A DNA stretch of 32,287 nucleotides. It comes from Desulfobacteraceae bacterium. GTDB taxonomy: Bacteria > Desulfobacterota > Desulfobacteria > Desulfobacterales > SKZT01. The stretch covers positions 1 to 32,287 of the forward strand of contig JAABTQ010000035.1 in the NCBI GenBank assembly GCA_011389745.1, read 5' to 3'. A model generated the notes under the pieces. The model was not told the origin of the DNA. It saw only the letters and a list, made by a program, of their open reading frames with translations, and did not search any database. A program made the translations under genes and the position numbers. Shown piece by piece: positions 3,850 to 25,658 of this stretch; position 1 is the stretch's first letter; each line of letters opens with the position of its first letter.

Positions 3850-3930
3850 TTTTGATATAAAATTTTCTTGACCTTTTCATATTTTTCCCCCTCCAAGAAC
3901 TTTTTATTACGCCTATTTTACACTTTTAGC

Positions 3931-6153
3931 ATGACCAATAGGAATGATAAGCATAGCCAGGACCTTATCCAAACCGACCCGGAGATACAAACCGAAAAAT
4001 TGCGTTGTATCACGGAAAATATGCAAGACTTGCAAGACCGTTATACCGAGCTGTACGACTTTGCACCTGTTGGTTATATTTTCATGGACGAACATGGCAT
4101 CATTCTTGAATCGAACCGCACTTTTGCAACCCTTATGGGGACATCCCGGGACTCATTAATCAATAAGACATTGGCACGTTTTATCCTCGGGGAAGACCAG
4201 GATGTTTATCATCTGTTTGAAAAAAAGCTCTCTGAAACAGGCGAAGAATCAGATTGCGAATTGCGTATGAAAACAGCCGACTCCGTTTCATTCTGGGTAT
4301 GCCTGAAAGGAAAACTTTATCGGGACAAAAAGCACGGAAAGCTTGTTCGCCGCATTATGGTGAGTGATATCAATAAGTACAGGCAGACAGAAAAAAAACT
4401 AAAAAAGAGCAATGATAATCTGAGCCGGATATTGGAAAATTCCCCTATTGTCATTTACAGTAAAGATCTTGATGGAAAATATACGATCATCAATAAAAAA
4501 TTTGAGGAGCTTTCCGGATTTAAAAAAGAAGACGTGATTCATAAGACGGATTTTGATTTATTTCCTGAAATTGCAGCTCAATCCGTGGAAAATGACCGAC
4601 ATGTCATTAAAAATGCTTCTCCTTTGGAAACAGAGGAAATAGCTCCGGTACACGGCCGGATGAGAACATTTTTAACTGCCAAGTATCCATTAATGAATTC
4701 AGTGGGGGAGCTTTATGGTGTATGTGGTTTTTCCATAGATATAGAAAAACGAAAACGGACGGAAGAGGCGCTCATTGAAAGTGAAGAGCGGTTCAGAATA
4801 TTTATGGAAAGATTACCGGGGGGAGTATTTGCGCACGACCTCAACGGACGGATTTTGTTGTGCAATGAGATGGCTTGTAAAAACACTGGTTATTCAAAAG
4901 AAGAATTGCTTGACATGTCGATAAGTGACATCGATCAGAACAGCATCAACAGAGATGACCGTACCCTTTTTTGGAACAGTCTGAATACGGGTCAGTGTGC
5001 AACTATTGAATCCACACACATCAGGAAGGATGGTTCGCAATATCCTGCCGAAATCCACATAAGCGCAGTCAGACTGCAGGGAAAGCCGATCATCCTGCCC
5101 ATCGCATTCGATATCACCAAACGGAAGCATGCTGAAACTGTTGCCGAAGAAGCTCACCAGAGATTACTGACAGTTCTCGACAGCATCAACGCCACAGTTC
5201 ACGTATCAGACATGGAGTCCTATGATATTTTATTTGTCAATCAATATGTTCGGGAAAACTTTGGAGATGTTGCAGGTAAAAAATGCTGGAGTGCCTTACA
5301 ATCAGGACAAATCGGTCCCTGTCCCTTTTGTACCAATCAAAAACTGGTCGATGATAGTGGCAATCCAAAAAGAATTTACCGGCGGGAATTGAAGAATATA
5401 AAAACCGGAAGATGGTACGACTCCCAGGATAGAGCTATAAAATGGGTTGATGGCCGTATGGTAAAGCTCGGAATTGGTTTTGATATCACTGATCGCAAGC
5501 GGGCTGAGGAGATGATAAAAATATCCCTGAGTGAAAAGGAGACATTGCTCAAAGAAGTTCACCATCGGGTCAAGAATAATATGCAGGTCATTTCCAGTCT
5601 TTTAAATCTTCAGATCATGAGAAACAAAAATGAGCAGATTAAAAAAGCGTTGATGGATTGCCAGGGGCGCATCAGTTCCATGGCCTCTGCTCATGAAATG
5701 CTGTACGCATCAGACAACCTGTCTCTTATTGATTGTCAGGCGTACATTTCTAAACTGACAAACGATATAATGCGATCTTACGAGACAGATCTGCATCGGG
5801 TTAAACTGACAGTCGATGCCGAAGGTATTACTCTTGGGATTCAACAAGCCTCGTCCCTGGGGTTAATTATTAATGAGCTCTTATCAAATGCTTTAAAATA
5901 TGGATTTCCCGAAAACATGCACGGTCGGATAATGATCCGTTTGAGAATGAGCGAACAAAATATTATGGAATTGGTTTTTAGCGACAACGGTGTCGGGATA
6001 CCACAAGATCTTGACTGGCGAAATACCAAAAGCCTCGGCCTCAATCTTATTGTTCTTTTGACCAAAAATCAGCTTCGCGGAAACGTAACCCTGAATGCAA
6101 GAGAAGGTGCCTGCTTTACCATCAGGTTTAATCGGGAAACAAATCAGACATAA
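3931..6153 (+). CDS. Four-PAS sensor histidine kinase (HisKA_2 family), cytoplasmic
   Basis: Taken from the ATG at 3931 (740 aa); a TTG at 3868 would add 21 hydrophobic residues, and neither start has a good Shine-Dalgarno. Four PAS domains are visible: about residues 38-150, 165-275, 285-400 and 412-525, each ending in an 'I(D/T)xRK' PAC motif. PAS4 carries C452 and 'PCPFC' (C464, C467), a cysteine set that could bind metal or sense redox. The kinase core begins near 539 with '[14 protein letters not shown]' (phospho-acceptor H544 or H545, HisKA_2 type), then N-box '[11 protein letters not shown]' and G-box 'SDNGVGIP'. No membrane helix and no receiver, so it must phosphorylate a separate response regulator that is not in this window. 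Confidence 0.85.
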
Positions 6154-6543: not shown

Positions 6544-8091
6544 TTACCAGACAGCTGTAATTTGGGTTCCTGCACCTGGTTTTGAATCTACAAAAAAAGA
6601 ACCACCGGAAACTTCCGTACGTTTTTTCATACTGGACAAACCTATTCCGATATTTTGACTTTTTATTACTGAAACATTTTCTGTTTCAAATCCGATACCG
6701 TTATCACGAATTGCCAACTGAATATGTCCTTCGTCTTTTTTTATGGAAATATGAACACTATCGGCACGGCTGTGCTTGGCAATATTATTGAAAGCCTCCT
6801 GAACAAGCCTGTAAATAATAATTTTTAAACGTTTTTCGATGTCCTGCTCAAAAAGATCAATTCTGGTTTTAACGCAAAGGTCAGGGTTACACTTTTCAAA
6901 GTCTTCACAAAGCCATTGGAGGGTTTTGAGGATTCCCACCTGATCGAGCATGGCGGGCCAGAGGCCGGAGCAGATATGCCGCACTTCATGGATAGCCTTC
7001 TGGACTGAGGGAATCAAAGCAGCTATAGATTTAGAAACCTCTTCAGATTCTTGCCCTGAAAGACTGTTTAAACAGTATTCCAGACTCATTTTGGCAAAAG
7101 TCAGGCTTTGTCCGACACTGTCATGAAGTTCACGGGAAATTCGCTCCCGTTCTTCCTCCTGAATCATCAACAGCCGTTCTGAAAGCAGCTGAAGTTCGGC
7201 TTCGGATTTTTCAAGGGCATTGACGGCTTTTTTTCGTATTTTTATTTCACGGTTTAGCAATTCAATTGCCGCCAATAGTTCGGAAGTACGATCATCCACG
7301 CGCTTTTCAAGCTCCTGGTGGGCATCCCTGAGGGCATTTTCCGCATTCTTACGTTCGGTAATATCCTCCAGGGAACCTTCATAATAAAAAAAACCCTGTT
7401 CAATATCGTGAATTTTTCGGATGTTGATTCTCATCCAGACAGTTTCGCCGTCCCAGCGGCGCATCCGCATTTCAACTCCATGGACAATCCCATCACAATG
7501 AATGATATCCTGCCATTTTTGTCGATCCACGGAATCAACATAAAGATTTTCAGCGCTATTTTCCAATAATGAAGGCTTGTCCGGGTATCCGAGAATTTTG
7601 ACCAGTGCTGTGTTGGCATCCAGAATCTTTCCGGTTGGAGTCGTACGAAAAATACCGACAGGAACCCCCTCAAACAGGTTTCTGTATTTTTGTTCATTCT
7701 CTTTGAGCATTTTTTCCATCTGATGCCGGTAAAAAGCCATTTCAATGTTTGTATGAAGCATCCTTGCATCAAATGGTTTTAAAATATAACCGAACGGTTC
7801 GGTTTTTTTTGCACGGCTTAGAGTTTCTTCATCAGCATAAGCAGTGAGATAAATTACCGGAATATCAAATTGTTCCCTGATCATTTCAGCAGCTTCGATG
7901 CCATCCATTTTCCCGGAAAGCCGAATATCCATAAGCACCAGGTTGGGTTGGGTGCTCTTTACGGTATTGATCGCCTCAATACCCGATGAAACACTGCCTA
8001 CAACTTCATATCCCAATTCTTTCAGTCTCTCCATCAATTCCATGGCAATGATGGTATCATCTTCCACAATGAGAATTCTAACCGGTTTCAT
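6544..8091 (-). CDS. REC-PAS-HisKA_3 hybrid histidine kinase (NarX/DegS-type core)
   Basis: A 515-residue soluble protein. An N-terminal receiver (1-120) has the acidic pair E10/D11/D12, phospho-acceptor D55, T83 and K105. A PAS domain follows (about 135-250, ending 'EDITERKNA'), then a coiled coil (250-312) and a HisKA_3 dimerisation domain with 'ERERISRELHDSVGQSL' (H323). The ATPase has 'EAFNNIAKHSRA' and 'IRDNGIGF'. HisKA_3 kinases normally phosphorylate LuxR/NarL-type regulators; none is present here. The start has a GGAG 8 bp upstream. It lies 35 bp downstream of the 886-aa kinase on the same strand, so the two are probably co-transcribed, and the receiver could accept phosphate from that neighbour. 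Confidence 0.88.
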   Translation of the reverse strand: MKPVRILIVEDDTIIAMELMERLKELGYEVVGSVSSGIEAINTVKSTQPNLVLMDIRLSGKMDGIEAAEMIREQFDIPVIYLTAYADEETLSRAKKTEPFGYILKPFDARMLHTNIEMAFYRHQMEKMLKENEQKYRNLFEGVPVGIFRTTPTGKILDANTALVKILGYPDKPSLLENSAENLYVDSVDRQKWQDIIHCDGIVHGVEMRMRRWDGETVWMRINIRKIHDIEQGFFYYEGSLEDITERKNAENALRDAHQELEKRVDDRTSELLAAIELLNREIKIRKKAVNALEKSEAELQLLSERLLMIQEEERERISRELHDSVGQSLTFAKMSLEYCLNSLSGQESEEVSKSIAALIPSVQKAIHEVRHICSGLWPAMLDQVGILKTLQWLCEDFEKCNPDLCVKTRIDLFEQDIEKRLKIIIYRLVQEAFNNIAKHSRADSVHISIKKDEGHIQLAIRDNGIGFETENVSVIKSQNIGIGLSSMKKRTEVSGGSFFVDSKPGAGTQITAVW

Positions 8092-8126
8092 GAGGATTTC
8101 TCCAAGAATCAGTAATTAAAATTCGA

Positions 8127-10787
8127 TCACACAGGCTCATTAAAAGTCATGACAAAACAAGCACCATCCTTACCGGAATATGTTAAGGTACCGTTTAATT
8201 GTTTTGCAAGGATATTAACCAATCGGAGCCCAAGGGTATCCGTATTTTGAAAATCCAGGTTTTCGGGCAGCCCAACGCCCTTATCCCTGACTGTCTGGGT
8301 ATAGGTTCCGGCCTCATCCCGAGTGAAAGAAATCACTATCTCACCTTGCTTTCCATCGGGATACGCATGTTTTAAAGCATTTGAAATCAACTCACTGATA
8401 ATTAAACCACATGGAATTGCCGTATTAACATTGAAAAAGATATTATCAATATGAATTTCCAGATGTATCGAGCCGTATCCTCCTCCGTAGGATTGGACCA
8501 GATAACCGGCCAGGCTTCGGACATATTCTGCAAAGTCTACCTCGGCCATGGATTTGGATTGATACAGCCTCTCATGGACCAAAGCCATAGATCGGATCCG
8601 GGTTTCGCAGTCTTTGAAAATGCCGGCCATGGTAGTATCCCTGACATTTTTAGATTGAAGATACATCAGGCTCGATATGACCTGAAGATTATTTTTAACC
8701 CGATGATGAATTTCTTTCAGCAGGACTTCCTTTTCCTTAAGAGAAGCATTGTTTTTTTCCGCCGACTCCTTTTTCTCTGTGATATCACGAATCATGCCGA
8801 TCATCCGGACAGGAATACCGTTTTCATTGCGGATTACAGCCCCTGTCATCAAGACCCATCTTATGGATTCATCAGGAAGTAGAATACGATGTTCGATGTC
8901 ATAGTGTTGGTTTTGTTCAATGGCTTTTTGGACCGCTTTATTCAAAAGCTCGCGATCTTCGGGATGAACCATGAAGAGAAAAAAATCGTAAGTGGGATCG
9001 ACATCGCCTTTTCGGCGACCGAGTATGTTCCATGCGGTGTCGGAGCAATAAAGCTTTCCGGTGGTCAGATCCAGATCCAGGCTTCCTATTCTGGCAGCAC
9101 GTTGGGCCAGGGCGTATTGTTCCCGGCTGTGCTTGAGAGCAGCTTCGGTATGCTGTCGCTCGAGTGAATTGCAAATAATTTCCCCTATCATTCGAAGCAA
9201 CCTGAGGTCTTCTTCATAAATTCTTCGGCTTTCTTTCAAAAAATCGAACCCCACAAACCCTTTCAGGCTCTCCCCAAAGATGAGAGGAATACAGATAAAA
9301 GAACGGATACCCTTAAACAGCCATTGGGCTTTTTCCGCTGTAGCCTCCCGTGGTAATTCTTCAATACATGGAATATGTACGACCTGCATCGATTGCAACT
9401 GGTTCATGAGCCACGGATTTGTCTGGTTGACCGGAAGCATCTGAATTTGATTTTCCCGGCATTCGATTCCCTCTCTGAGCCACTCATGTGTTTTTGTAAA
9501 AAAATCAGGGTCGCTGGTAATCCGGAAAACATAACTTCGATCCGCACCATAATATTGCCCGAATGTTTCCAATGCCCCGTAAACGGCCCCATCAATTTCT
9601 GCTGAAGAAATACTGATAAATTCACGACTCATGTCTGAGATCAATCGGTATGTCTCAATACGATGGCTCATTTGATCCGCCATGCTGTTAAATGCCTTTG
9701 CCAGGGCTCCGATTTCATCTTCACGATCCTGTTCGACATTCAGATAAAGTTCACCATCGGCGATGCGGGTAGCTGTATTTGCCAGTTCAGACAATGGATC
9801 TGCGATTCCGCGAGCAAAAACCATGGACAAAACACCTGCAATTATGAGGGCAAACGCACCCATGCCGACATTTAAGGCCAGCATAATGTATATGGGCGTG
9901 TAAGCTTCTAAACGATCCATTTCCGAAAGAAGCGCCATTTCGATTTTCGGAACCCATAGGTGAACACCCAGAACAGGAACGCCCCGGTAATCTCTATAAG
10001 TACCGGAACCGTTTTCATGGCGGTCAAGAGCCGCATTGATTCCCTCGCTGCTCATAACTACGTTTCCCGGAGAATATCCGGGCAATCGTAACTCGGTTAA
10101 AAGCATCCGATTTTTTCCGACCAGATAAGTTTCTCCGGTTTGTCCAAGACCTATACGTTCCGACATGATTTCCTCCAGTTTTGTCATGCCGGTTATGCCA
10201 CAAAGCACCCCGATAACTTCTTTCCGGAAATTACGTACCGGATGCACCGCTACCAACTTGTTGACCCCTTTATAGATAGAGGAAAAAGCATGGGGTTGAA
10301 TATGTACACCCGGATATTTAATCCCCTCTGAAAAATATGGCTGAAATCCCCGGAACTGTCCTATGCTTTCCTGATCCGTCGAAATTATTACATATCCGGA
10401 GGGAGAAAGCAAAAACACCTCCTCGAAACTCCGGATCGTTTGAAATATTTCATTTAAGTTTTGCCGGAAATTTATAAACTCTGATCCGTTGTTATCGGAA
10501 AAAAAATCATGGCGAAGTTCACCGAAAATTTCCTTCAAATGGGTGGCAGCGAAAATAATCCTAAGGTCTTTTTCGAGCGAATCCACCCAGGCATTGACTT
10601 GTGATGCCTTGAGTGACGCCACGGAAAACAGTTGTTTTTTAATCAATTTTTTTCCGTTGGAAAGATCGATGACCGTCGTGGTCAGAGTCACGGCAGAAGT
10701 GGGAAGCAAAACCAACAAAATAAAAACCACCAGCAGCCGCGATCTGATTGTACCCTTTTGAAGAAAATGTCTGATTGTTGACGCCAT
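8127..10787 (-). CDS. Membrane sensor histidine kinase: Cache-HAMP-GAF-PAS-HisKA_2
   Basis: An 886-residue transmembrane kinase. TM1 lies at about 18-38, followed by an extracytoplasmic double-Cache-like domain (about 40-295, with 'VFLLSPSGYVIISTD' and 'GQTGETYLVGKN'), TM2 (299-324), HAMP (325-375, 'DREDEIGALAKAFNSM'), GAF (about 385-555), PAS (about 565-680, 'WNILGRRKGD...MVHPEDRE...IRDITEKK') and a HisKA_2 core from 689 with 'KEIHHRVKNNLQVI' (H694/H695). N-box 'SELISNALKHAYP' and 'VRDKGVGLP' follow. The periplasmic Cache domain suggests a small-molecule ligand. It lacks a receiver, but the co-oriented REC-PAS-HisKA_3 gene begins 35 bp downstream. The ATG start has no strong Shine-Dalgarno. 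Confidence 0.88.
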   Translation of the reverse strand: MASTIRHFLQKGTIRSRLLVVFILLVLLPTSAVTLTTTVIDLSNGKKLIKKQLFSVASLKASQVNAWVDSLEKDLRIIFAATHLKEIFGELRHDFFSDNNGSEFINFRQNLNEIFQTIRSFEEVFLLSPSGYVIISTDQESIGQFRGFQPYFSEGIKYPGVHIQPHAFSSIYKGVNKLVAVHPVRNFRKEVIGVLCGITGMTKLEEIMSERIGLGQTGETYLVGKNRMLLTELRLPGYSPGNVVMSSEGINAALDRHENGSGTYRDYRGVPVLGVHLWVPKIEMALLSEMDRLEAYTPIYIMLALNVGMGAFALIIAGVLSMVFARGIADPLSELANTATRIADGELYLNVEQDREDEIGALAKAFNSMADQMSHRIETYRLISDMSREFISISSAEIDGAVYGALETFGQYYGADRSYVFRITSDPDFFTKTHEWLREGIECRENQIQMLPVNQTNPWLMNQLQSMQVVHIPCIEELPREATAEKAQWLFKGIRSFICIPLIFGESLKGFVGFDFLKESRRIYEEDLRLLRMIGEIICNSLERQHTEAALKHSREQYALAQRAARIGSLDLDLTTGKLYCSDTAWNILGRRKGDVDPTYDFFLFMVHPEDRELLNKAVQKAIEQNQHYDIEHRILLPDESIRWVLMTGAVIRNENGIPVRMIGMIRDITEKKESAEKNNASLKEKEVLLKEIHHRVKNNLQVISSLMYLQSKNVRDTTMAGIFKDCETRIRSMALVHERLYQSKSMAEVDFAEYVRSLAGYLVQSYGGGYGSIHLEIHIDNIFFNVNTAIPCGLIISELISNALKHAYPDGKQGEIVISFTRDEAGTYTQTVRDKGVGLPENLDFQNTDTLGLRLVNILAKQLNGTLTYSGKDGACFVMTFNEPV

Positions 10788-10820
10788 TGTGTTTTTCGGC
10801 CATTTTTTAATGGAAATATT

Positions 10821-10842
10821 GAAAATCCGGCAAAGGGTTTTC
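10821..10842 (-). terminator. Possible weak hairpin after the REC-HisKA-REC-REC kinase gene
   Basis: An 8-bp stem with one G-U pair (GAAAATCC, loop of 6, GGGTTTTC) sits in the 75-bp gap between two minus-strand kinase genes. No proper U-run follows on the minus strand, so termination would be inefficient at best and the two genes may still be co-transcribed. Confidence 0.25.
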
Positions 10843-10862
10843 CTTATTATTTTTAGAAATCA

Positions 10863-13109
10863 TCATTTCTCCGCCGGACTGTTTTGGGGATTTTTTTGAC
10901 CCCATTTTTCAATGACTAAAATAATTTCAGAGGGTTTGATCGGTTTTGCGATGTAGTCATTCATGCCGGCTTCAAGGCATTTTTCACGGTCACCTTTCAT
11001 TGCATAAGCCGTCATGGCAATAATAGGCACTTGATGGTTCAGAACCGGGGAAGAAGGATCCCGGATCACAGCAGTCGTTTCATAGCCTCCCATGACCGGC
11101 ATGGAAATATCCATAAAAACAAGATCGAAATTCTGTTCTGAAAGGATTATTATAGCTTCCTTTCCGTTGCCGACAACTGAAGCACGATATCCAAACTTTT
11201 CAATAATTTTTAATCCCAATTTTTGGTTCAGCAGATTATCTTCAACCATCAAAATTTTGACTTTGAGTTTTTTATCCTCTACAAGACTATGACGTGTCAC
11301 GATGGGTTTGGAAGGTTTTTTTACAGTGACATAGGGAATCCCCAAGGCGGTTTTAATGCATTCCTGCAGCTGATTTCGTTTGACGGGTTTTGTGAGATAC
11401 CCTGAAAAGCCGATATCATGGCAAGTCATTGCGTCCCCGCGCTTTCCGGCGGAAGTCAGCATAATGAGGGTGGTATCCGTGATATCCGGATCGGATTTGA
11501 TTTTGCGGCCAAGTGTGATACCGTCCATTCGCGGCATCAGCATATCGATAATGGCCATTTGAAATGGCCGGCACTGTGTAACGGCGGTTTTTAATTTCTC
11601 CAAAGCGATGACACCGTCGGGAGCCTCATCAAAATCGCAACCCCACGCTTTTAGATATTGCATCACAAAACGGCGATTCAATGGGCTGTCATCAACCACA
11701 AGTATCCGCTTATTGCGAATATCCGCAGGAATGACTGCTTCCCGATAAGATTCTTCAGCCTGTTTTCCCAGCTTAACCGTAAACCAGAATGTTGAGCCGA
11801 CTTCTTCCTGACTATCCACTCCGATCTCTCCCTTCATCATCTCGACAATTTTTTTCGAGATGGCCAACCCCAAACCGGTCCCTCCAAATTTGCGAGTCAT
11901 TGAAGCATCTACCTGGGAAAAGGATTTGAACAGTCGATCCCGGTCGGACCGGGCAATTCCCATTCCAGTATCATGGACCTCAAAGCGTATAATGACATGT
12001 TGACTTTGCTCCTGCACCAAAAACGCCTTTAAATTCACCTCTCCTTTTTTAGTAAATTTGATGGCATTACTGACCAGGTTGGTCAGTACCTGCCGGAGCC
12101 GACAAGGATCTCCTCTTAAAAAAGAAGGCACATCATGATGTATCAGACAGCCAAAATCCAATTTTTTTTCATCAGCTTTGATGGCCATCATATTCATGAC
12201 TTCCTCAACGGCAGTTCGAAGGTCAAAATCAATATTTTCAAACTCAAGCTTTCCCGCCTCGATTTTTGAAAAGTCAAGCACACTGTTGATGATGGATAAT
12301 AAAGCATCCGCACTGCTGCGAACTGTCTCGGCATATTCTTTTTGTTCGTCACTTAAAGCCGTGTCCAGGAGCAATTCAGTCATTCCTATGACACCGTTGA
12401 GAGGGGTTCGGATTTCATGGCTCATATTGGCCAGAAACTCGCTTTTGGTCCGACTGGCCTCCTCGGCTTCTTTTCTGGACTTGTCCAACAATTGTTTTTG
12501 TTCCAGAAGCATGGCCTCAGCCTGTTTTCGTTCAGCAATGTCTTGTTCCAGTTGCCGCTTGGTTTTTAAAAGGTCTTCGTTCGCATAAATCAGTTCATTG
12601 TTTTTCTGATAGGCGTTTTCATATGTTGAAAAAAGCAAATCAACGACTTGCATTCGGTCACTGTTAATCGTTCGCTTTTTGCCGCCATAATAAATCTCAA
12701 TACCCAATGAGGAGCGATATTGTTTTCGGAGTTCCTGATTTAAAAACACGGTCCTGATTCTTTCCAGGAGCAATTGCTCATCATAAGGTTTGGTCAGAAA
12801 ATTATTTGCGCCGCAATCCAGAGCCTTTAGTACATCCTGGATATCCGACAGAGATGTCAGCAGTACGACAGGAATGTCATTCATGCCGGGAGTAGCCTTA
12901 ATATGGCGACAAAGCTCAAAACCGTCCATGTCGGGCATATTGCTGTCACTGATCACCATGTCGGCGGGATTTTCGCTAAGATAGCCCAGTGCATTTTGCC
13001 CGTCGGTCGCAATGGAAACCTTGAAATTTTGCCTTTCCAGTATGGATTGAAGTTGAGTCGCCTGTGTCAAGCTGTCTTCCACAATCAGAATACTCATTTT
13101 TTCATTCAT
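10863..13109 (-). CDS. Soluble hybrid kinase: REC-coiled coil-HisKA-HATPase-REC-REC
   Basis: Started at the ATG at 13109 (748 aa), which places the receiver motif 'ILIVEDS' at the N-terminus behind a GGGGGAG; an in-frame extension to 13238 adds 43 residues without domain character. REC1 spans 7-125 (D55, K107). A coiled-coil linker (about 165-225) leads into HisKA '[16 protein letters not shown]' (H231), HATPase_c (about 330-450; 'HDTGMGIA', '[17 protein letters not shown]'), REC2 (466-590, D522, K574) and REC3 (616-735, D667, K722). All three receivers keep their acidic pocket, phospho-acceptor, Thr and Lys. No HPt domain is present, so a separate HPt would be needed for onward relay. BarA/TorS-like core, with no membrane anchor. 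Confidence 0.88.
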
Positions 13110-13400
13110 ATCTCCCCCAATAAATGGTTTGCCATAAACTCTCACTGTCCCGATAGTGTTTTTTAACACATTCGGGGCAATTACAGTGCAAACTTTTTTC
13201 ATGGGAATTTTCTGATATAAATCATCATTTGCTATCAACGGCCGCTTTTATCAATGATTAACCTTTGTCTTTTCAAGCTTGAAAGATAAAGCAGTTTGTT
13301 TTATTATTACTGCTCACCTCATTGATTTGGTTTTTGCGGCGTCTTAACACCTATCTATCCGAAGCAATCAGGTTTTTCAATCTTTTTTACGCCATATCTC

Positions 13401-15047: not shown

Positions 15048-18000
15048 TTAGCAACCAACCCACTTGCGGATCATTTCAGCAATCATATCAGGAGTAATAG
15101 GCTTTGAGATATAGTCATCCATTCCCGCCGCAATACATTCCTCCTTGGCACCTTTCATGGCATGGGCCGTCATTGCCACAATAGGCACTTTGGGATTTAT
15201 GGTGCTTGAGGTGTCATTGCGAATGATTCGAGTGGCTTCATACCCGTCGAGAATCGGCATCTGGCAATCCATAAATACCAGGTTGTATGCAACCTGATTT
15301 AAGGCTTCAATAGCCTCCTGGCCATTTTTGGCAACGTCGGCCCGATATCCGATTTTACTAACAATTTTCAAGGCAATCTTCTGGTTGATCACATTATCAT
15401 CTACCAGGAGTATACGAACGTTTTGCTTTTGTTGTTCGGCAATGTCGTATTTTGTCATGATAAATTCCTTTGTGTCGGAGGCTTCGAATTGTTTGAGATT
15501 TAACACATTGGTCAGGCAATCGTGTAAAAGGGATTGCTTGATCGGTTTGGTCAAAAACGCGCTGAATCCTATTTTTTTTAAGTTTTTGATATCCCCTCTT
15601 TTTCCCACCGAAGCCATCATCACCAGTCTTGTATCAGCCAACGAGGGTTCACCCTTGACCATTTTACCCAGTTGTTCGCCACTGACCAAGCCTATTTGCA
15701 TATCCAGCACAGCGATATGAAAAGGCTCCTTATTTTTTTCCGCCGATCTGAGTTTTTCAATTGCCTCATCAGCACTTTGGGCTTCATCATAAAGGCATTT
15801 CCAGGATTTCAGCAATGTTTTTAAAAACATCCGGCTGGTTTTGTTGGTATCGATAATTAAAACCTTTTTATTTAAAACCGTCTCATAGTTTTCCGTAAAA
15901 ATTTGTTTTTGAGATATCATCTTTTCAAAATCAGCCGTAAACCAGAAAGACGACCCCTCGCCTTGCCGGCTTTTTACATTGATAGTACCGCCCATCATTT
16001 CCACAAGCTTTTGGGCAATGTTCAACCCCAACCCGGTGCCGCCGAATTTTCTGGCCATGGAAGCATCCGCCTGAGTAAACGGCTCGAATATGTATTGAAC
16101 ACGGTCTTCGGCAATCCCGATGCCTGTATCTTTGAATAAAAATTTTAAAGTGACGTGGCTTGAATCTTCATGTTCTAGAGTCGTGTGAATCAGAATTTCT
16201 CCTTTATGGGTAAACTTGATGGCATTGTTGGCCAGATTGATGAAAACCTGGCGCAACCGTCCGGGATCCCCTCGCAACAAGGAAGGCACCTCAGGTTCAA
16301 TCATAAAGACAAATTCCAGACCCTTTTCCTGTGCACGAAAAGCAAGCATATCAATGGTTTGTTCCAAAGTAACACGCAGATCAAAGTCCACGATTTCAAT
16401 ATCAAGCTTTCCGGCCTCGATCTTGGATATATCCAAAATATCGTTTATGATGGCCAGAAGCGAGTTCGCGCTGCTTTGTATGCTGGACACAAATTCATGT
16501 TGTTCATTATCAAGGTCCGTGTCAATCAGCAAAGAAGTCATGCCGATAACCCCGTTCATTGGGGTGCGTATTTCATGGCTCATATTGGATAAAAATTCGC
16601 TTTTGGAAATATTGGCCGCCTCAGCCTCCCCGGCCAGTTTATTTGCACGTTCGATGGCACGATTCAGTTCCGCGTTGATTTCCAGTAATTTCCTGTTTTG
16701 CCGTTCTATATTATTATTAGCGATCCTTAGAGCTTCTTCGGCTCTGAAACGCCTGGACGCCTCAATATAAGAATATGTCAGGTTTTCAACAACCTGAATG
16801 TCTTCACTGGTGTAAGGCTCCGGTTTGTTGGCCAGGGCGATCATACCGACCAGAATCCCTTCCTCCATTAAAGGAACCCCCAAAAACGATATGATTTTCG
16901 GGTGGCCGTCAGGCACCCCGACACTTTCAGGTACATTTTCCGGTTCGTTAAAAAATATTGATTTTTTTTCTTGGATCACCTTTCCCCATATGCCCCTGAC
17001 CGGCAAATCATTAATGGCTTTTAAAGAACCGGAATTTTTCATTCTGCACTTCGCCCATCCGGGGTCTGACATGGCCGTCGTATCAAGTTTTGCGTTCGGG
17101 TTGATCCTTCCAACCCACCCGAAAGCACTTTGGGTCAATGCTTCAGAAACGGTCAAAAAGGTTTTGGCAATTTCCGCTTCGGTTTTGCATTTGAATGCAG
17201 TATTCAGAACCCGGTTGATTCCTTCGAGAAGGTTACTCTGTTTAAGTATTTGTCTCTCGGCCCTTTCTCTGTTCACGATCTCCAGATGGGCTCGCCTGTA
17301 AAAAAAAGACAATGAAAATGCCACAATGAGATAAATGAACAAGAAAATCAAACTTGACGGCTTGAAAAACGGAGCAAATGCCTCCTGTTTGATTTCATCG
17401 AGATCCTTAAAAAGTACAAGACGCCATTGGGAAAGATTTTCCACCGGCAATTGGTGCATTAGATATTCGATACCATTCTTCGAAATAGCCCTGTTATCAG
17501 GTCTCATGCTCACTTCGTTCCATTGCCATGGCCCCTGGCCGAATTGCTTTGAATTTTTTATGGATTCGGCCCCTTCCTGTGATAAGGGAGAAAGTGTTTG
17601 AAACAGCCACGGAGGATACGAGGTTATAAAAATGATACCCTGAGGTGAAACCAGGCATGAAATGATGCCTTCTTCAAGTTTGAATTCCCTCTCAATGATT
17701 TCAACCGACGATTTTAAAACGGCAACTCCGCTGACATCACCGGTGTTATCAATATGCACCGGATAACTGTAATAAATGCCCCTTTCTCCGGATGTAACCC
17801 CCAATGCCATGTATGCATAGGGAGTTCCCTGAATCGCATTTTGGAAATAAGGTCTGAAGGCATAGTTTTTTCCCAAAAAACTATCGACATCGTTGCGATT
17901 GCTCGATGCAATCGTGTTCCCATGTTTATCCATCAAATAGCAGACACTGGTTTCCAAAGCATTGTTGAAAGTATCCAACACCTTGTTGACGTTGGCAAGA

Positions 18001-18248
18001 GTTTGAGAGTCGGGGCTGATTAATGCCTCTTTTAAAGGCTGCAAACCGGATAAGGCTTCTAACGAATTGAAATTTTCCTTAAAAACATGAGCCATCTGAT
18101 AACTTTTTTTTTCAGCAACTTTGATGATTTCGTTCCGGGCTGTTTCATGTGCGTGGTTAATGATGCTTGAATAGTAAATATAAGAAGCAAAGGATAGAGA
18201 AAGAACCACAAAACCGGAAATGAGCAGCAATATTTTTCGAAGACTCAT
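15048..18248 (-). CDS. Membrane hybrid kinase: Cache-GAF-HisKA-HATPase-pseudoREC-REC
   Basis: 1066 residues. TM1 (6-28), an extracytoplasmic double-Cache-like domain (about 35-290; '[16 protein letters not shown]', 'GIYYSYPV'), TM2 (about 298-317), GAF (about 345-500; '[23 protein letters not shown]'), coiled coil, HisKA '[16 protein letters not shown]' (H558), HATPase_c ('FKDTGIGIA', '[19 protein letters not shown]'), then two receivers. REC1 (about 793-915) is degenerate: the acidic pair is D800-T801 and the switch Thr is Ala (A879), although D849 and K901 remain. REC2 (943-1063) is intact (D950/D951, D994, K1049). No HPt. Phosphate probably passes only through REC2, with REC1 acting structurally. 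Confidence 0.88.
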
Positions 18249-18669: not shown

Positions 18670-20748
18670 ATGGATCGTGTCCTTGTGGTGGATGATAACG
18701 AAAAAAACTTGTACCTTCTCGAAACCCTGTTGCATGCGCAGGGATTTCAAACCCGAACCGCCGCAAATGGTGAACAGGCCCTGGCCATGGCCAGGAAAGA
18801 ATGTCCGACTCTGATCATATCGGACATATTGATGCCGGTGATGGACGGTTTTATGTTATGCCGTCAATGTAAAAAAGACCCAATCCTGAAAAATGTGCCC
18901 TTTATTTTTTACACGGCCACCTATTCTGATCCTAAAGATGAAGCTTTTGCTATGGCTCAGGGGGCGGATCTTTTCATTGTTAGACCTGCAAAACCGGAAG
19001 TATTCGTGGATCAGATCCGGCAGGTGCTTGTCAAATACCAATCAGGGCAAATGAAAGGATCATTAATAACTCCGGAGGATGAATCCATCTTTTTGAAAGA
19101 GTACAATGTCACACTGATCCAAAAACTGGAGGACAAACTGGCGGAACTTGAGAGAACAAATGAGGCGCTGCGCAAAAGTGAAGAAAAGTACCACCTGATC
19201 ACCGATCATATGGCCGACACCATATGGACAATGGATCTGAATTTGCACTTTACCTATATCAGCCCGTCCATTATTCGCCTGCGGGGTTTTACTGTGGAGG
19301 AGGCCATGGAACAGACACTTGACCAGGTGTTGACCCCCGAATCCTTACAGATTGTACTTAACACGCTGGAAGAAGAAATGGCAAAGGAAGCAAGCCGAAC
19401 TGCAGATCCGGACAGAATCCGCACCCTGGAACTGGAGGAATACAAAAAGGATGGTTCCACTGTTTGGGTGGATAACCGCCTTTCTTTTTTGCGTGACCCT
19501 GATAGTAAGGCCGTTGCAATACTGGGAGTGACCAGGGAAATCACCGATAGAAAACGGGCTGAACAGGAAAACACGAATTTACAGCAACAATACTACCAGG
19601 CACAAAAAATGGAGGCTGTGGGTAAACTGGCCGGGGGAGTTGCCCATGATTTTAACAACCTTCTGTCCATTATCCTGGGTTACGGGGAAATAATGATGGA
19701 TGATTTGCCTTCCGGAGATCCGCACCATGAATTGTTGAAAGAGATTCTTGAGGCGGGGATGCGGGCCAAAAATTTGACCCGCCAATTGCTGGTTTTCAGC
19801 CGAAACCAGCCTCTTGAAATAAAACTGGTGGATGTCAATGCACTGGTGGCCGGATTTGAAAAGATGATTCGTCGGTTAATTGGTGAAGATATACGTTTGG
19901 AATTGGAGTTCACATCCAAAAAACCTGCCGTGGAAGCGGATGTTTCTCAATTGGAACAGGTATTGATGAACCTTGCTCTAAATGCAAGGGATGCCATGGA
20001 AGACGGCGGGGTGCTTACCATTGAAACCGATGTCGTTGAACTGGATGATTTATATGCCTTGAAAAAACCGAACATTGTCCCCGGAAAATATGTCATGGTA
20101 GCAATGACTGACACAGGCACCGGCATTGATCATAAAATACTCGACCGAATTTTTGAACCGTTTTTCACCACCAAGTCCAAGGAAAAAGGTACCGGCCTGG
20201 GGCTTGCAACCACCTACGGCATTGTTAAAAAGCACGAAGGCAATATCTGGGTTTACACCGAGCAAGGCCGGGGAACGACTTTTAAAATCTATCTTCCTCT
20301 GGTTTCAAAAGAAGTCATGCCGGAGTCGGAACCTGTTACGTGCACTGAGCCCATGGATGTTCCCGCTACAATTCTGGTGGTAGAAGACGACCCGGCAGTG
20401 CGAAAGATCGCCTGTTCCATTCTTGGAGGCAAGTGCTATGAAATACTTGATTCAGGAAACCCTGAAGAGGCCGTTGATATCGCACGGAACCATAAAGCAC
20501 CGATTCACCTGCTGCTGAGCGATATCGTGATGCCCGGTATGAAAGGACCGCAAGTTTATGAAAAAATTTCCCAATACCATCCGGATATCAAGGTGTTGTA
20601 TATGTCGGGATATTCGGAAAATTCCATTTTTCGCTACGGAATCGACTCCGACCATGCCGATTTTATCCAAAAACCTTTGACCGTCAAATCTCTTCTGGCA
20701 AAAGTAGCCGGTATGCTTGATAAATCCCTGAAAGGTGATAATTTGTAG
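18670..20748 (+). CDS. Soluble hybrid kinase: REC-PAS-HisKA-HATPase-REC
   Basis: 692 residues from an ATG with an excellent GGGAGG 7 bp upstream. REC1 (1-120) has 'VLVVDDN', D52 and T82, but Arg105 replaces the conserved Lys ('FIVRPA'). A PAS domain (about 172-295, ending 'EITDRKRAE') is followed by a NtrB-like HisKA 'GKLAGGVAHDFNNLLSII' (H326), HATPase_c ('NLALNARDAM', 'MTDTGTGID', 'KGTGLGLATTYGIVK') and REC2 (566-688; 'ILVVEDDPAV', D618, 'FIQKPL'). The core resembles PAS/HisKA kinases in which the C-terminal REC receives phosphate from the adjacent core. No membrane segment. It is the only member of the central block on the plus strand besides the haem sensor, and ends at a clear terminator. 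Confidence 0.88.
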   Translation: MDRVLVVDDNEKNLYLLETLLHAQGFQTRTAANGEQALAMARKECPTLIISDILMPVMDGFMLCRQCKKDPILKNVPFIFYTATYSDPKDEAFAMAQGADLFIVRPAKPEVFVDQIRQVLVKYQSGQMKGSLITPEDESIFLKEYNVTLIQKLEDKLAELERTNEALRKSEEKYHLITDHMADTIWTMDLNLHFTYISPSIIRLRGFTVEEAMEQTLDQVLTPESLQIVLNTLEEEMAKEASRTADPDRIRTLELEEYKKDGSTVWVDNRLSFLRDPDSKAVAILGVTREITDRKRAEQENTNLQQQYYQAQKMEAVGKLAGGVAHDFNNLLSIILGYGEIMMDDLPSGDPHHELLKEILEAGMRAKNLTRQLLVFSRNQPLEIKLVDVNALVAGFEKMIRRLIGEDIRLELEFTSKKPAVEADVSQLEQVLMNLALNARDAMEDGGVLTIETDVVELDDLYALKKPNIVPGKYVMVAMTDTGTGIDHKILDRIFEPFFTTKSKEKGTGLGLATTYGIVKKHEGNIWVYTEQGRGTTFKIYLPLVSKEVMPESEPVTCTEPMDVPATILVVEDDPAVRKIACSILGGKCYEILDSGNPEEAVDIARNHKAPIHLLLSDIVMPGMKGPQVYEKISQYHPDIKVLYMSGYSENSIFRYGIDSDHADFIQKPLTVKSLLAKVAGMLDKSLKGDNL

Positions 20749-20882: not shown

Positions 20883-22085
20883 ATGAATGCTGTGAGAAAA
20901 ATCCGCATCAACACTCGTTTAATGGTTACCGTTGGAACCATTTTTGCTATAGTGGCAGTTGTAACCATCAGTATTGTCGACTGGAAAATGAAACAACATG
21001 CTTTGACGGAAGCTGAGTCCAAAGCCAAAATAATGCTGGATCGCAACCTTGCCATACATACCTATTTCACCCACCAGCTCAAGCCTGCCTTGTTCAACAT
21101 GATCGAAAAAAGTCCGGCCATTGATACCGAAACCTATTTTGAACCTGTGTGGATGTCATCGACTTATGCGATTCGTGAGATGGAAAAATATTTTCAATCC
21201 CTCACAGATATGGATTATTATTACAAGGAAGGCGCTATAAATGCCAGGAGCCCTGAAAATGAGGCGGATGCTTACGAAAAAGCATTCATACAAAAGCTGA
21301 ACGAATCTCCCACACTTGAAACGCACGCTTCAGTACGGACTATTGAAAACCAGCCTTTTTTTGCGGTGCTCCGGCGGGGCGAAAAAATGGAACATAGCTG
21401 TCTCAGATGCCACAGCACTCCGGACGAGGCTCCTGGCGATCTCGTATCCATATATGGGCCTGAACGAAGTTTCAACAGGTCTGCGGATGAGGTGGTGACG
21501 GCAATTTCCATCAGAATACCCCTGGATGAAGCTTATGCTTCCGTAAATCAGCTGACCTTACGATTATCTGCCCTTTTCGCAATCGTTTTTATCGGGCTTT
21601 TTGCAATCGTGGCATTTTTGAACAACCGATTGGTGTTCATTCCCCTTAAAAATATACGCAAAAAAGCACTGCAAATTTCAACGGATCCTAAACACCTGGG
21701 AGAACAAATCGAACTTCCCGAGGGCAAGGAACTGGCAGAGCTGGTCATCGCTTTCAACGACATGTCAATCCAGCTTTTTGAGGATCGTACCCAATTGGAA
21801 AACCGTATCGATAAAAGGACCAGAGAATTAAAAATAGCCAACGAAAGGCTGCATCAAGAGATTGAAGAACGAAAACAGACAATCAGCGAATTGGAGCAAA
21901 CCCTGAATGAGGTGAAAATTTTGCGGGGAATTTTACCGATTTGTTCCTATTGTAAAAAAATCAGAGATGACAAAGGGTACTGGAATCAGCTTGAATTATA
22001 CCTCACGGAGCATTCCAGAGCAGAGCTTTCACATTCTCTGTGCCCGGAATGCGCAAAGAAATATTATCCAGACATAAAATTGTAA
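20883..22085 (+). CDS. Tll0287-like (DUF3365) c-haem sensor with HAMP and C-terminal four-cysteine knuckle
   Basis: 400 residues. TM1 (12-33), then a periplasmic Tll0287-like domain (about 40-222) carrying one c-type haem site, C173-L-R-C176-H177. TM2 (227-249), a HAMP linker (250-300) and a long coiled coil (300-345) follow. The C-terminal module 'ILPICSYCKKIRDDKGYWNQLE' ending 'LCPECAKKYYP' has C354-x2-C357 and C387-x2-C390, a probable zinc or iron knuckle that recurs at the ends of deltaproteobacterial signalling proteins and has no defined function. There is no kinase or methyl-accepting domain. It is probably a redox, gas or haem-ligand sensor that signals through the cytoplasmic knuckle. 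The short GAF gene follows at 35 bp. Confidence 0.8.
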   Translation: MNAVRKIRINTRLMVTVGTIFAIVAVVTISIVDWKMKQHALTEAESKAKIMLDRNLAIHTYFTHQLKPALFNMIEKSPAIDTETYFEPVWMSSTYAIREMEKYFQSLTDMDYYYKEGAINARSPENEADAYEKAFIQKLNESPTLETHASVRTIENQPFFAVLRRGEKMEHSCLRCHSTPDEAPGDLVSIYGPERSFNRSADEVVTAISIRIPLDEAYASVNQLTLRLSALFAIVFIGLFAIVAFLNNRLVFIPLKNIRKKALQISTDPKHLGEQIELPEGKELAELVIAFNDMSIQLFEDRTQLENRIDKRTRELKIANERLHQEIEERKQTISELEQTLNEVKILRGILPICSYCKKIRDDKGYWNQLELYLTEHSRAELSHSLCPECAKKYYPDIKL

Positions 22086-22463: not shown

Positions 22464-23666
22464 TTAATTTTGGGAAGGAAGGAGAATATGGAATGTAGAA
22501 CCGACATCGACCACGCTTTCCACCCATATTTTTCCACCATGCCCTTCAATGATTTTTCTGACGATGGCAAGACCCAGACCTGTGCTCTCCTCACCACCGG
22601 TTGTCTGGACCGAGGTTTTTTGAAAGGGATTGAAAAGCCGATCCAGTTGATCCTCGGGAATACCCTGGCCCTGGTCTTTAACCGATATCATCAGGGAATT
22701 GTCCCTTGATGCACTCACATGAACCTCGACGGTCGTTTCAGGATATGAAAATTTCAGGGCATTGCTGATGAGATTTTGTAAGACCTGTGATATTTTTCCA
22801 GGATCAATAACAAATTCCAGGTAATTTTCCTCTGATATGAATTTGATATCTATGTTTTTCCTATGGGCAATGGGTTTATTGAGTTGTACATTTTTCCGGG
22901 CCAATTCAACCACATCGGCAGGTACAGGTTCCAACTCCAGTTTTCCTGATTCAATTTTGGCCAGGTCCAGAAGATCATTAACCATTTTAAGCATAAATTC
23001 ACTGGTGGATTTGATGATGGTTACAAATTCCATTTGGGTTTCATCCAGAACATCAGCAGCTTCATCCTCCAAAAATTCAGCATACATCATGACAGCGCCT
23101 AGTGGGTTGCGAAGATCATGGGCCGCCATTCCCAGAAACCGGTTTTTTTGTTCATCCAATCTTTCCAGTTCTTTATTTTTTTTGACCAATTCCCGCTGTA
23201 AATTGGACAGTTCATTGTTCAGGCGGGTCAAATCATCATAAAAGCGGCTGTCTTTCTTAGCCTGTTCCCGGGTAATAACCGCGGAGGTTTTGACCAAATC
23301 CCTTAGCTGGTTGACCTGTTCATTGTTGATGCGCATCATTTCCTCATAGAGAGTCATGACGCCATTGTTGTCCATGGCCGCCACAATCAATATGTTTTCA
23401 GAAGTCAGAGCACCTGCAAAATGAAGTGTTGCGATATTATCCATAAGGGGCACATTAATCTGCCAATTGAACGCAGCACCATTTGACCGCATCTCTACAA
23501 GAAAATTCAATGCCTTATCCATATTTGGCCGATCAACGATCGATATAAATGGCCGTCCGATGGTTATCCGTTGACTGATTTCGAGATCATCCCGAAGAAT
23601 TTGTCGGATATTTCCCTGGCGATCACATAGGATCGCCAGGCCATAAGGTTTTTCATTCTGATTCAT
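22464..23666 (-). CDS. Histidine kinase paired with the cobalamin-binding sensor
   Basis: 400 residues, soluble. A PAS-like N-terminal domain (about 1-105, 'YGLAILCDRQGNIRQILRDDL', 'ENILIVAAMDNNG') leads into a long coiled coil (about 107-175), HisKA 'RFLGMAAHDLRNPLGAVMMYAEFL' (H183) and HATPase_c ('LQNLISNALKFSYP', 'VKDQGQGIPEDQ', 'STGLGLAIVRKIIEGHGG'). No receiver and no membrane helix, so sensing is cytoplasmic or by contact with a partner. It starts 11 bp after the stop of the B12-binding gene on the same strand and is almost certainly co-transcribed with it, which makes that protein its likely input. The cognate response regulator is not in the window. Confidence 0.87.
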   Translation of the reverse strand: MNQNEKPYGLAILCDRQGNIRQILRDDLEISQRITIGRPFISIVDRPNMDKALNFLVEMRSNGAAFNWQINVPLMDNIATLHFAGALTSENILIVAAMDNNGVMTLYEEMMRINNEQVNQLRDLVKTSAVITREQAKKDSRFYDDLTRLNNELSNLQRELVKKNKELERLDEQKNRFLGMAAHDLRNPLGAVMMYAEFLEDEAADVLDETQMEFVTIIKSTSEFMLKMVNDLLDLAKIESGKLELEPVPADVVELARKNVQLNKPIAHRKNIDIKFISEENYLEFVIDPGKISQVLQNLISNALKFSYPETTVEVHVSASRDNSLMISVKDQGQGIPEDQLDRLFNPFQKTSVQTTGGEESTGLGLAIVRKIIEGHGGKIWVESVVDVGSTFHILLPSQN

Positions 23667-23677
23667 GAATATTGACC

Positions 23678-24739
23678 TTACCTGATCATACTATTTGCCA
23701 CTTTGATGGCTTCCTGGGCATCTGCAGCAAATCCGTCCGCACCGATTTTTTTCCATAGGTCCGGAGACTGCCGAAACGGATATCCGCCTACCAGAATCTT
23801 GATATGTTTACCTGAATCCGTACTCCGAATGAGCCTGATCAAATCTTCCATTGTGGATTTATTAAAGGCAATGGTTGCTGAAAGTCCCAACACATCGGCT
23901 TTTTTTTCCGAGATGGATCCGATGATTGTATCTGTTGGCGTGTTGGCCCCCATATAATATGTATCCCAGCCTTCCATTTCAAAAAAATCCGCCACCATCC
24001 GGACTCCGATTTCATGGAGTTCCCCCCCCACGCATGCGGCCACAAGCCTTTTTCCGATTTTTTCAGTGGAAAAGATATACGGGTAAAGCCGGCTCATGAT
24101 CATCTGTGTGGCTGCGGTGCAAAAATGCTCCTGAGCCACGCTTATCCGATTGGTCTGCCAAAGCCGTCCGATTTCATACTGTGATTGTTGAAATACATTA
24201 AGATAGATGTCTTTAACCGGTGTACCTTTTTCAGCAGCATCCACTACCAGATCGGCGGCTGCATGACGATCCCCGTTCAACAGAGCCTCCAGGTATTGAT
24301 TGGCAAGGCCCGATAAAGGGGTGTTTTCATCTATATTGGGTGCCGGGTGCGCAACGGGCTGTTTCAATAATGACAGTCCGGCATCGATAAATTTGTGTAC
24401 CTCTTTGGACATTGTCTCATCAAGGTTGTCGTCAAGGATATCTTTCATGCACTCTAAAGTAAATGTCCAAATGTTTTGGGGCAAACCGAGGTTGTCGAAA
24501 AGGACCTGCACCCACTTCACGTAATCAGTAAAAAGGGTAATATCGGAAGCGGTTATGGCTTCACGAAGATAATCAAGATGATAGTGAACATCCTCCAGAC
24601 TTCTTTTTCGAATATCCGATTTTACGGGAATGTTCAAAAGATCCGGTTTTAAATTGTAAATTCGTTCCACGATATTTTCGGCCAGCATTTTTTCGTTTTC
24701 TTTGATGGTCCGACTGATCTGCTCGGCAAGTATTTGCAT
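23678..24739 (-). CDS. Cobalamin-binding sensor with CarH-type W-x9-EH cap, no DNA-binding domain
   Basis: 353 residues from the ATG at 24739, chosen because GGAGG sits 7 bp upstream; a 70-residue upstream extension in frame overlaps another gene and lacks a ribosome-binding site. An N-terminal helical domain (about 1-125) resembles the four-helix input domains of RsbR-like and stand-alone B12 sensors. The MetH-like helical cap (about 140-225) carries W194-x9-E204-H205, the same spacing as the W-x9-EH signature of CarH-type B12 photoreceptors. The Rossmann B12 domain (230-353) has E240-L-H242-E-I-G245 (His as lower ligand), S287 after 41 residues, and G318-G319. It lacks a MerR helix-turn-helix, so its output is probably the kinase gene 11 bp downstream. 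Light sensing is inferred. Confidence 0.85.
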   Translation of the reverse strand: MQILAEQISRTIKENEKMLAENIVERIYNLKPDLLNIPVKSDIRKRSLEDVHYHLDYLREAITASDITLFTDYVKWVQVLFDNLGLPQNIWTFTLECMKDILDDNLDETMSKEVHKFIDAGLSLLKQPVAHPAPNIDENTPLSGLANQYLEALLNGDRHAAADLVVDAAEKGTPVKDIYLNVFQQSQYEIGRLWQTNRISVAQEHFCTAATQMIMSRLYPYIFSTEKIGKRLVAACVGGELHEIGVRMVADFFEMEGWDTYYMGANTPTDTIIGSISEKKADVLGLSATIAFNKSTMEDLIRLIRSTDSGKHIKILVGGYPFRQSPDLWKKIGADGFAADAQEAIKVANSMIR

Positions 24740-24767
24740 GGGCACACCTCCGTTCTGATGTTTAATG

Positions 24768-25464: not shown

Positions 25465-25507
25465 CAGGTTTGGGCCCGGCCCAGCCGAGTGGGATGCTTA
25501 TAAGTAA
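25458..25507. repeat. 50-bp imperfect direct repeat, copy 1
   Basis: Copy 1 starts TTACTTGCAGGTTTGGGCCC and ends AAGTAA. It matches the segment at 25609-25658 at 38 of 50 positions in the same orientation. Its ends (TTACTT / AAGTAA) are themselves inverted, so each copy may fold as a hairpin. The pair brackets the G/C-run palindrome. Confidence 0.6.
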
Positions 25508-25515
25508 CTCCTCAC

Positions 25516-25606
25516 AAGTCCCCCTTTGAAAAAGGGGGATTTAGGGGGATTTAATACGGCATCAGCTTGGCAAATCCCCCCGGCCCCCTTTTTCAAAGGG
25601 GGGAGC
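25516..25606. repeat. Nested G/C-run palindrome (MITE- or REP-like)
   Basis: A 19-bp block (25520-25538, CCCCCTTTGAAAAAGGGGG) recurs as its exact reverse complement at 25584-25602, and GGGGGATTT (25544-25552) pairs with AAATCCCCC (25572-25580). Each 19-bp block is also nearly self-complementary. The whole can form a long stem with a 19-nt loop. The style matches short palindromic elements dispersed in many bacterial genomes; on the transcript it could act as a terminator. Confidence 0.6.
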
Positions 25607-25608
25607 AG

Positions 25609-25658
25609 TTACTTGTCGGTTTGGGCCCTGCGTAGCCGTATGGAGCGCTTTTAAGCAA
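25609..25658. repeat. 50-bp imperfect direct repeat, copy 2
   Basis: Second copy of the element at 25458-25507 (38 of 50 identical, same orientation), starting TTACTTGTCGGTTTGGGCCC and ending AAGCAA. It ends about 57 bp before the start of the periplasmic binding-protein gene and may lie in its promoter region. Confidence 0.6.

Follow-up and report, generated by a model that had tools for sequence, protein, structure and literature searches.

In work on the photoglobin family, Schneider et al. in 2022 reportedly predicted a light-sensing role in signal transduction systems for a globin-B12 bundle. Photocobilins, characterized in 2024 and exemplified by SasPcob (PDB 8J2W/8J2X) and AbDPcob/AbPcob (8J2Y), carry a CarH-type B12 domain and a fused phycobiliprotein-like globin, and their AdoCbl domain may stand at either end of the protein (PMC10979010). 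They are coupled to a fused diguanylate cyclase or to an unknown partner, and the function of those that are not fused to an enzyme has been called less clear (PMC10979010). The motifs GxxW, EH, GxxH, and GxxxP form the SignatureFinder signature of light-responsive CarH-type B12 domains, which has been tested by experiment (PMC11796333). In the BBAG-2/Myxococcales systems, a globin, a B12 protein, and a heme oxygenase are associated in genomes, and bilin binding has been shown for BBAG-2 (PMC10151467).

Here we describe a pair of minus-strand genes in a 32,287-nucleotide stretch of DNA, referred to as the window, from a Desulfobacteraceae bacterium (Table 1). We consider it probable that the pair is the light-sensing input of a two-component system, in which a photocobilin with the globin ahead of the B12 part controls the histidine kinase encoded downstream. 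As in the photocobilins, the CarH-type B12 signature is joined to a phycobiliprotein-like globin; in contrast to them, its presumed output is a histidine kinase encoded by a gene of its own. The Myxococcales systems differ in that the globin and the B12 domain are encoded by separate genes, and the text describing them names no histidine kinase (PMC10151467). The original prediction had called a B12 light switch or corrinoid sensor that controls a two-component kinase an unusual input in a presumed anaerobe. A B12 light domain with an output other than DNA binding is not new, as photocobilins that drive a diguanylate cyclase have been published (PMC10979010); the family has been known since 2022-2024, and it is the conserved kinase partner, together with the association with heme oxygenase, that makes this sensor worth an experiment.

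Table 1. Features of the sensor-kinase pair (positions are those of the window)
Feature	Position	Strand	Basis
Histidine kinase (soluble, 400 aa) with PAS-like domain, long coiled helix, HisKA, and HATPase	22464..23666	-	Pfam, model
H183, phospho-acceptor histidine	23118..23120	-	invariant in 32 partner kinases
Intergenic gap of presumed two-gene operon, 11 bp	23667..23677	.	sequence
Predicted photocobilin-type light sensor gene, 353 aa	23678..24739	-	ORF, Pfam, phmmer versus PDB, AlphaFold
B12-binding Rossmann domain, residues 230-353	23681..24052	-	PF02310, conservation, model
Four-helix bundle of the B12 cap (residues 143-222), containing G191xxW194 and E204H205	24074..24313	-	PF02607, model
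E204-H205	24125..24130	-	sequence, alignment, 81/81
W194	24158..24160	-	alignment to 8j2w/8j2x; 81/81
Photoglobin (phycobiliprotein-like globin) domain, residues 1-128	24356..24739	-	PF00502, model versus 4po5, profile A6
W76 (= SasPcob W296)	24512..24514	-	alignment; W in 81/81
S47-L48-E49-D50, where phycobiliproteins have the bilin motif CxRD	24590..24601	-	alignment; D50 = SasPcob D270
GGAGG, likely ribosome-binding site 7 bases ahead of the sensor ATG at 24739	24747..24751	-	sequence

Both open reading frames were found where they had been predicted, although the mechanical frame of the sensor extends past its ATG to 24949. The sensor is built from a photoglobin, followed by the four-helix B12 cap and the B12 Rossmann domain. 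When it was compared with all PDB chains by phmmer, photocobilins were the top matches (SasPcob, 1e-27; AbPcob, 1e-18), with CarH far lower at 28 bits, and a 37-member profile matched photocobilins at 1e-39 and 4e-33. Pfam assigned residues 146-218 to B12-binding_2 (1e-18), residues 231-345 to B12-binding (2e-24), and, at the N terminus, residues 8-120 to the Phycobilisome family PF00502 (22.9 bits versus a gathering score of 22.2). Structural comparison showed that the AlphaFold2 model of the sensor (pLDDT 94.2, pTM 0.88) has the fold of the CarH/photocobilin B12 module; the best matches of its B12 part were photocobilins (Z 26.8, 2.0 Å over 208-209 residues), while residues 1-128 superposed on allophycocyanin 4PO5 (Z 18.4, rmsd 1.8 Å, 128 residues). 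In addition, a profile of the N-terminal domain (A6) recovered allophycocyanins at 6e-10 and the SasPcob globin domain at 8e-5. Sequential Foldseek did not align the sensor globin domain to the SasPcob globin, presumably because the domain order differs, and the allophycocyanin match was recovered by VIA-align and profile searches. The N-terminal domain is therefore helical, as had been proposed, but it is not a domain private to this protein; it is a photoglobin, which places the protein in the known photocobilin family. By sequence and predicted fold, the 353-residue protein is a photocobilin with the globin first and the B12 part second, the reverse of the order in SasPcob.

All four light-response motifs are present, as G191RLW194, E204H205, G239ELH242, and G264ANTP268. 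The residues singled out in the original prediction (W194, E204, H205, E240, H242, G245, S287, G318, and G319) are exactly in place, and those of the cap, with their W-x9-EH spacing, align with the corresponding positions in CarH, CtMerR, and photocobilins. In the alignment and the model, the Rossmann domain contributes the predicted lower axial ligand H242, G264xxxP268, S287, and G318G319. With CarH/LitR (5C8D, 3WHP), the sensor shares the B12 cap and Rossmann fold, the W-x9-EH spacing, the lower-ligand His, and GxxxP. We nevertheless rejected an assignment to CarH/LitR, as the sequence score is low and the MerR helix-turn-helix is, as anticipated, missing, residues 1-128 being the globin; the TransRegCarH NCBIfam model scored 49.5 bits against a cut-off of 400. 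The equivalent of CarH His132, which serves the bis-His light state, is Q195 in the sensor and His in only 10 of the 81 homologues. A Gln also follows the pocket Trp in SasPcob, and a CarH-like bis-His light state is hence not expected. An assignment to the corrinoid proteins of methyltransferases was likewise discarded, given the adenosyl-pocket signature and scores of 68.8, 62.2, and 59.0 bits for the NCBIfam models MtbC, MtgC, and pyl_corrinoid, versus cut-offs of 370, 350, and 215.3, respectively.

Conservation was assessed in a set of 81 sequences from many phyla, consisting of the window protein and 80 homologues. The scan patterns used to fetch these homologues included [VI]SVAQEH[YF] and MVADFFE, and conservation is independent evidence only for residues that the patterns do not cover. 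W194, E204, H205, H242, G245, S287, G318, and G319 were found in all 81 sequences, and residue 240 was Glu in 68 and Asp in 13; the equivalents of W194 in CarH and photocobilins stack on the adenosyl group. D50 and W76 of the globin were also identical throughout (81/81), and since the fetching scan relied on peptides of the B12 part only, their invariance lies outside the fetching patterns. In a phmmer alignment, these two residues correspond to D270 and W296, which contact biliverdin in SasPcob (the numbering of the paper equals the chain index of 8j2w plus 6, because W61 has index 55). D270 contacts biliverdin, and W296 touches both ring D of the bilin and the corrin (PMC10979010). The likeness to SasPcob thus extends to the Asp, the Trp, and the Gln after the pocket Trp, whereas its B12 domain is only 29-30% identical to that of the sensor. 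D50 also occupies the Asp position of the phycobiliprotein C-x-R-D bilin motif, which reads SLED in the sensor. Unlike phycobiliproteins, the sensor has no Cys for covalent bilin attachment and is not light harvesting. In the attachment column, position 47, 52 of the 81 sequences have Ser, among them the window protein, and 16 have Cys, so that any bilin binding would be noncovalent, as in SasPcob. As a member of the photocobilin family, the sensor probably responds to red light besides green light.

The partner was recognized by Pfam as HisKA plus HATPase_c (model pLDDT 87). While no Pfam family matched its N-terminal ~97 residues, their strand/helix order in the model is PAS-like, and the PAS-like/HisKA architecture foreseen for this protein is borne out. 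H183, N298/N302 of the N box, D331xG333, and G363xG365 of the G box are invariant in 32 partner kinases, which are 28-54% identical to the window kinase in an alignment that includes the PAS-like N terminus. The original prediction had proposed a survey of the gene pair in other genomes, and in this survey, as in the alignment of the cap, it held up. Of the 76 public loci that extend far enough beyond the sensor, 69 carry a kinase gene directly downstream of it (same strand, with a start no more than 450 bp past the sensor stop). Beyond these 69, a Verrucomicrobiales locus (L121) encodes a single 1281-aa chain with the order globin-B12-PAS-HisKA-HATPase-REC-REC-Hpt and a second fused chain of 866 aa with the order globin-B12-PAS-HATPase, the globin in the 1281-aa chain being identified by phmmer and its other domains by Pfam. 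Carriers belong to the Desulfobacterota, Chloroflexota, Bacteroidota, Gammaproteobacteria, and Acidobacteriota and include a Lokiarchaeota bin and, among cultured organisms, Desulfoferrobacter suflitae (L062) and Methanohalophilus euhalobius (L133). The order-level homologue records are from Desulfobacteraceae/Desulfobacterales (for example, L073, L074, L096, L115, and L136), and the host is therefore likely a sulfate-reducer-like anaerobe. Within the order (146 relatives), 9 of the 14 best kinase matches adjoin a CarH-type B12 gene. The distance matrices of sensor and kinase are correlated (r = 0.50, a value reached in 0 of 5000 permutations), to which common descent contributes. It is most likely the histidine kinase that the sensor controls. 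No response regulator gene lies next to the pair in the window, and several relatives have a REC or REC-PAS gene after the kinase. A literature search returned no published photocobilin-histidine kinase pair, which is weak evidence, as subscription papers were mostly outside its coverage.

Several related loci are arranged differently. At L035, L036, L037, L039, L041, and L049, the system is split, with a photoglobin gene of ~155 aa beside a sensor-related B12 gene of ~220 aa; the split globins of relatives have no Pfam match yet match the photoglobin profile, and these loci mostly adjoin genes for histidine kinases or hybrid kinases. At L038, L045, and L091, homologues of the B12 sensor adjoin GGDEF genes and no histidine kinase gene, which suggests that outputs have been exchanged. 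The contig itself is a signaling-rich region: sensor or hybrid histidine kinases with HisKA_2, HisKA_3, HisKA, and multiple REC domains are encoded at 3868-6153, 6544-13238, 15048-18248, and 18670-20748 of the window. The gene at 20883-22085 encodes a Tll0287-like (DUF3365) sensor domain with a weak match to HAMP. At its C terminus, the product has a Cys-rich motif (CSYCKKIRDDKGYW...CPEC), which is likewise found at the end of a REC protein in the B12-kinase locus of genome G144 (L055:8830-9447). Upstream of the pair, the intergenic sequence at 25500-25640 resembles an inverted repeat (CCCCCTTTGAAAAAGGGGG...CCCCCTTTTTCAAAGGGGG) and may be a small mobile repeat.

With regard to cofactor supply, the window genome encodes cobalamin adenosyltransferases at two sites and a heme oxygenase (C80:107108-107680). 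A bacteriophytochrome was considered as the client of this enzyme and rejected, as no PHY domain was found in the window genome. Within the order, heme oxygenase (PF01126) occurs in 4 of 146 genomes, all of which belong to the 24 genomes that have a homologue of the B12 sensor (hypergeometric P of 6e-4, with relatedness ignored), and in three of the four it lies beside the B12-sensor gene. A fifth heme oxygenase gene, incomplete at the end of its contig, is immediately adjacent to the sensor gene at L074. Heme oxygenase is missing from G001, a genome of the same genus that has no sensor. Across phyla, PF01126 is recognizable in only 7 of 50 carrier genomes. A homemade bilin can hence not be general, and many carriers must import bilin, use a divergent enzyme, or rely on B12 alone. 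Heme oxygenase requires O2, which sits awkwardly with presumed anaerobes. In two relatives, G144 (L055:5741-7072, plus strand) and G089 (L056:7776-9113, minus strand), the heme oxygenase continues into a photoglobin-like domain at its C terminus (hhalign probability 94, E 1e-7), and this fusion gene is immediately followed by genes for a stand-alone B12 protein, a histidine kinase, and a REC protein; a direct hand-over of biliverdin is possible. The heme oxygenase of the window genome is 55-56% identical to the heme oxygenase domains of these fusions. A DUF3786 gene directly follows the photocobilin gene in G034 (L034:4308-5402), and near the heme oxygenase on C80 of the window genome there is a frame that looks similar by eye, though not assigned by Pfam (L054:10670-11305).

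From what is known of the family, a mechanism can be proposed. In the dark, AdoCbl would be held base-off/His-on under a closed cap, with H242 below the cobalt and W194, E204, and H205 around the adenosyl group. The photoglobin probably carries a biliverdin-type linear tetrapyrrole, bound noncovalently beside the corrin with D50 and W76 as contacts. The Co-C bond would break either when B12 itself absorbs green light or when the bilin absorbs red light and passes it on to B12, and the loss of the adenosyl group would then move the cap helix and change dimer or kinase contacts. The altered sensor could, perhaps by touching it directly, raise or lower the activity of the soluble PAS-HisKA kinase, which would in turn phosphorylate a response regulator encoded elsewhere. 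The nearest precedent for the control of a kinase in trans is the protein contact through which photocobilins can influence a separate enzyme (PMC10979010).

Other explanations have to be weighed against this mechanism. The sensor might respond to green light through B12 alone, with a photoglobin that has lost bilin binding and serves as a structural or signaling relay. The lack of a recognizable heme oxygenase in most carriers and the Ser at the attachment position of the window protein would fit such a sensor, as would the weak binding of biliverdin by the AbDPcob globin (PMC10979010). However, D50 and W76 are invariant, SasPcob binds biliverdin although it, too, is without the Cys, and the window genome has a heme oxygenase 55-56% identical to those fused to globins beside B12-kinase genes, with no phytochrome to use its product. 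We regard the loss of bilin binding as somewhat unlikely. It is improbable that the protein instead reports corrinoid or AdoCbl status, so that AdoCbl binding or a redox or ligand state, and not light, sets the kinase output. The adenosyl-pocket W-x9-EH together with GxxxP marks light-responsive domains (PMC11796333), a corrinoid methyltransferase subunit of the same genome (L002) is without the W/EH cap residues, and a fused bilin-type globin in the homologues and heme oxygenase neighbors would be unexpected for a plain B12 sensor. Such a role would nevertheless agree with a fold common to methyltransferase corrinoid proteins (MtgC and MtbC being below cut-off), with hosts of which many may live in the dark, and with the finding that AbDPcob has a different activity in each of its apo, dark, and light states (PMC10979010).

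The O2 requirement of heme oxygenase, set beside presumed anaerobic hosts, could also mean that the protein senses oxygen or redox conditions, through AdoCbl/bilin chemistry or a globin-bound heme, the heme oxygenase link then reflecting oxygen exposure; the CarH photoresponse is reported to depend on redox chemistry (PMC10442372). This is highly improbable, given that the N-terminal profile matches phycobiliproteins and not heme globins and that the bilin contacts are conserved. Finally, kinase adjacency is absent for two of the six full-length homologues at the order level (G020 and G034), as might be expected if the kinase were an unrelated neighbor. As the pair is preserved across phyla (69 of 76 loci) and fused in the L121 chains, this idea is nearly refuted. 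We therefore favor a photocobilin that senses light with B12 and probably a bilin and that controls the kinase next to it.

More tentatively, and with somewhat more doubt than confidence, we propose that the pair exemplifies a phylum-spanning red/green light two-component system of many presumed anaerobic, nonphototrophic bacteria and some archaea. In this system, a photocobilin would control a dedicated soluble PAS-histidine kinase in trans, with the bilin coming, in some lineages, from a dedicated or photoglobin-fused heme oxygenase. The distribution of heme oxygenase hints at the members that should bind a homemade bilin, and the conserved kinase partner offers a concrete output for photocobilins, namely, light-dependent autophosphorylation. 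The pair may also provide natural red/green two-component parts for optogenetics. If true and proven, this would be a new photoreceptor-kinase pathway and an unexpected light sense for anaerobes, and one may ask why light would be measured by sulfate reducers and other presumed anaerobes, by Chloroflexota, and even by a methanogen.
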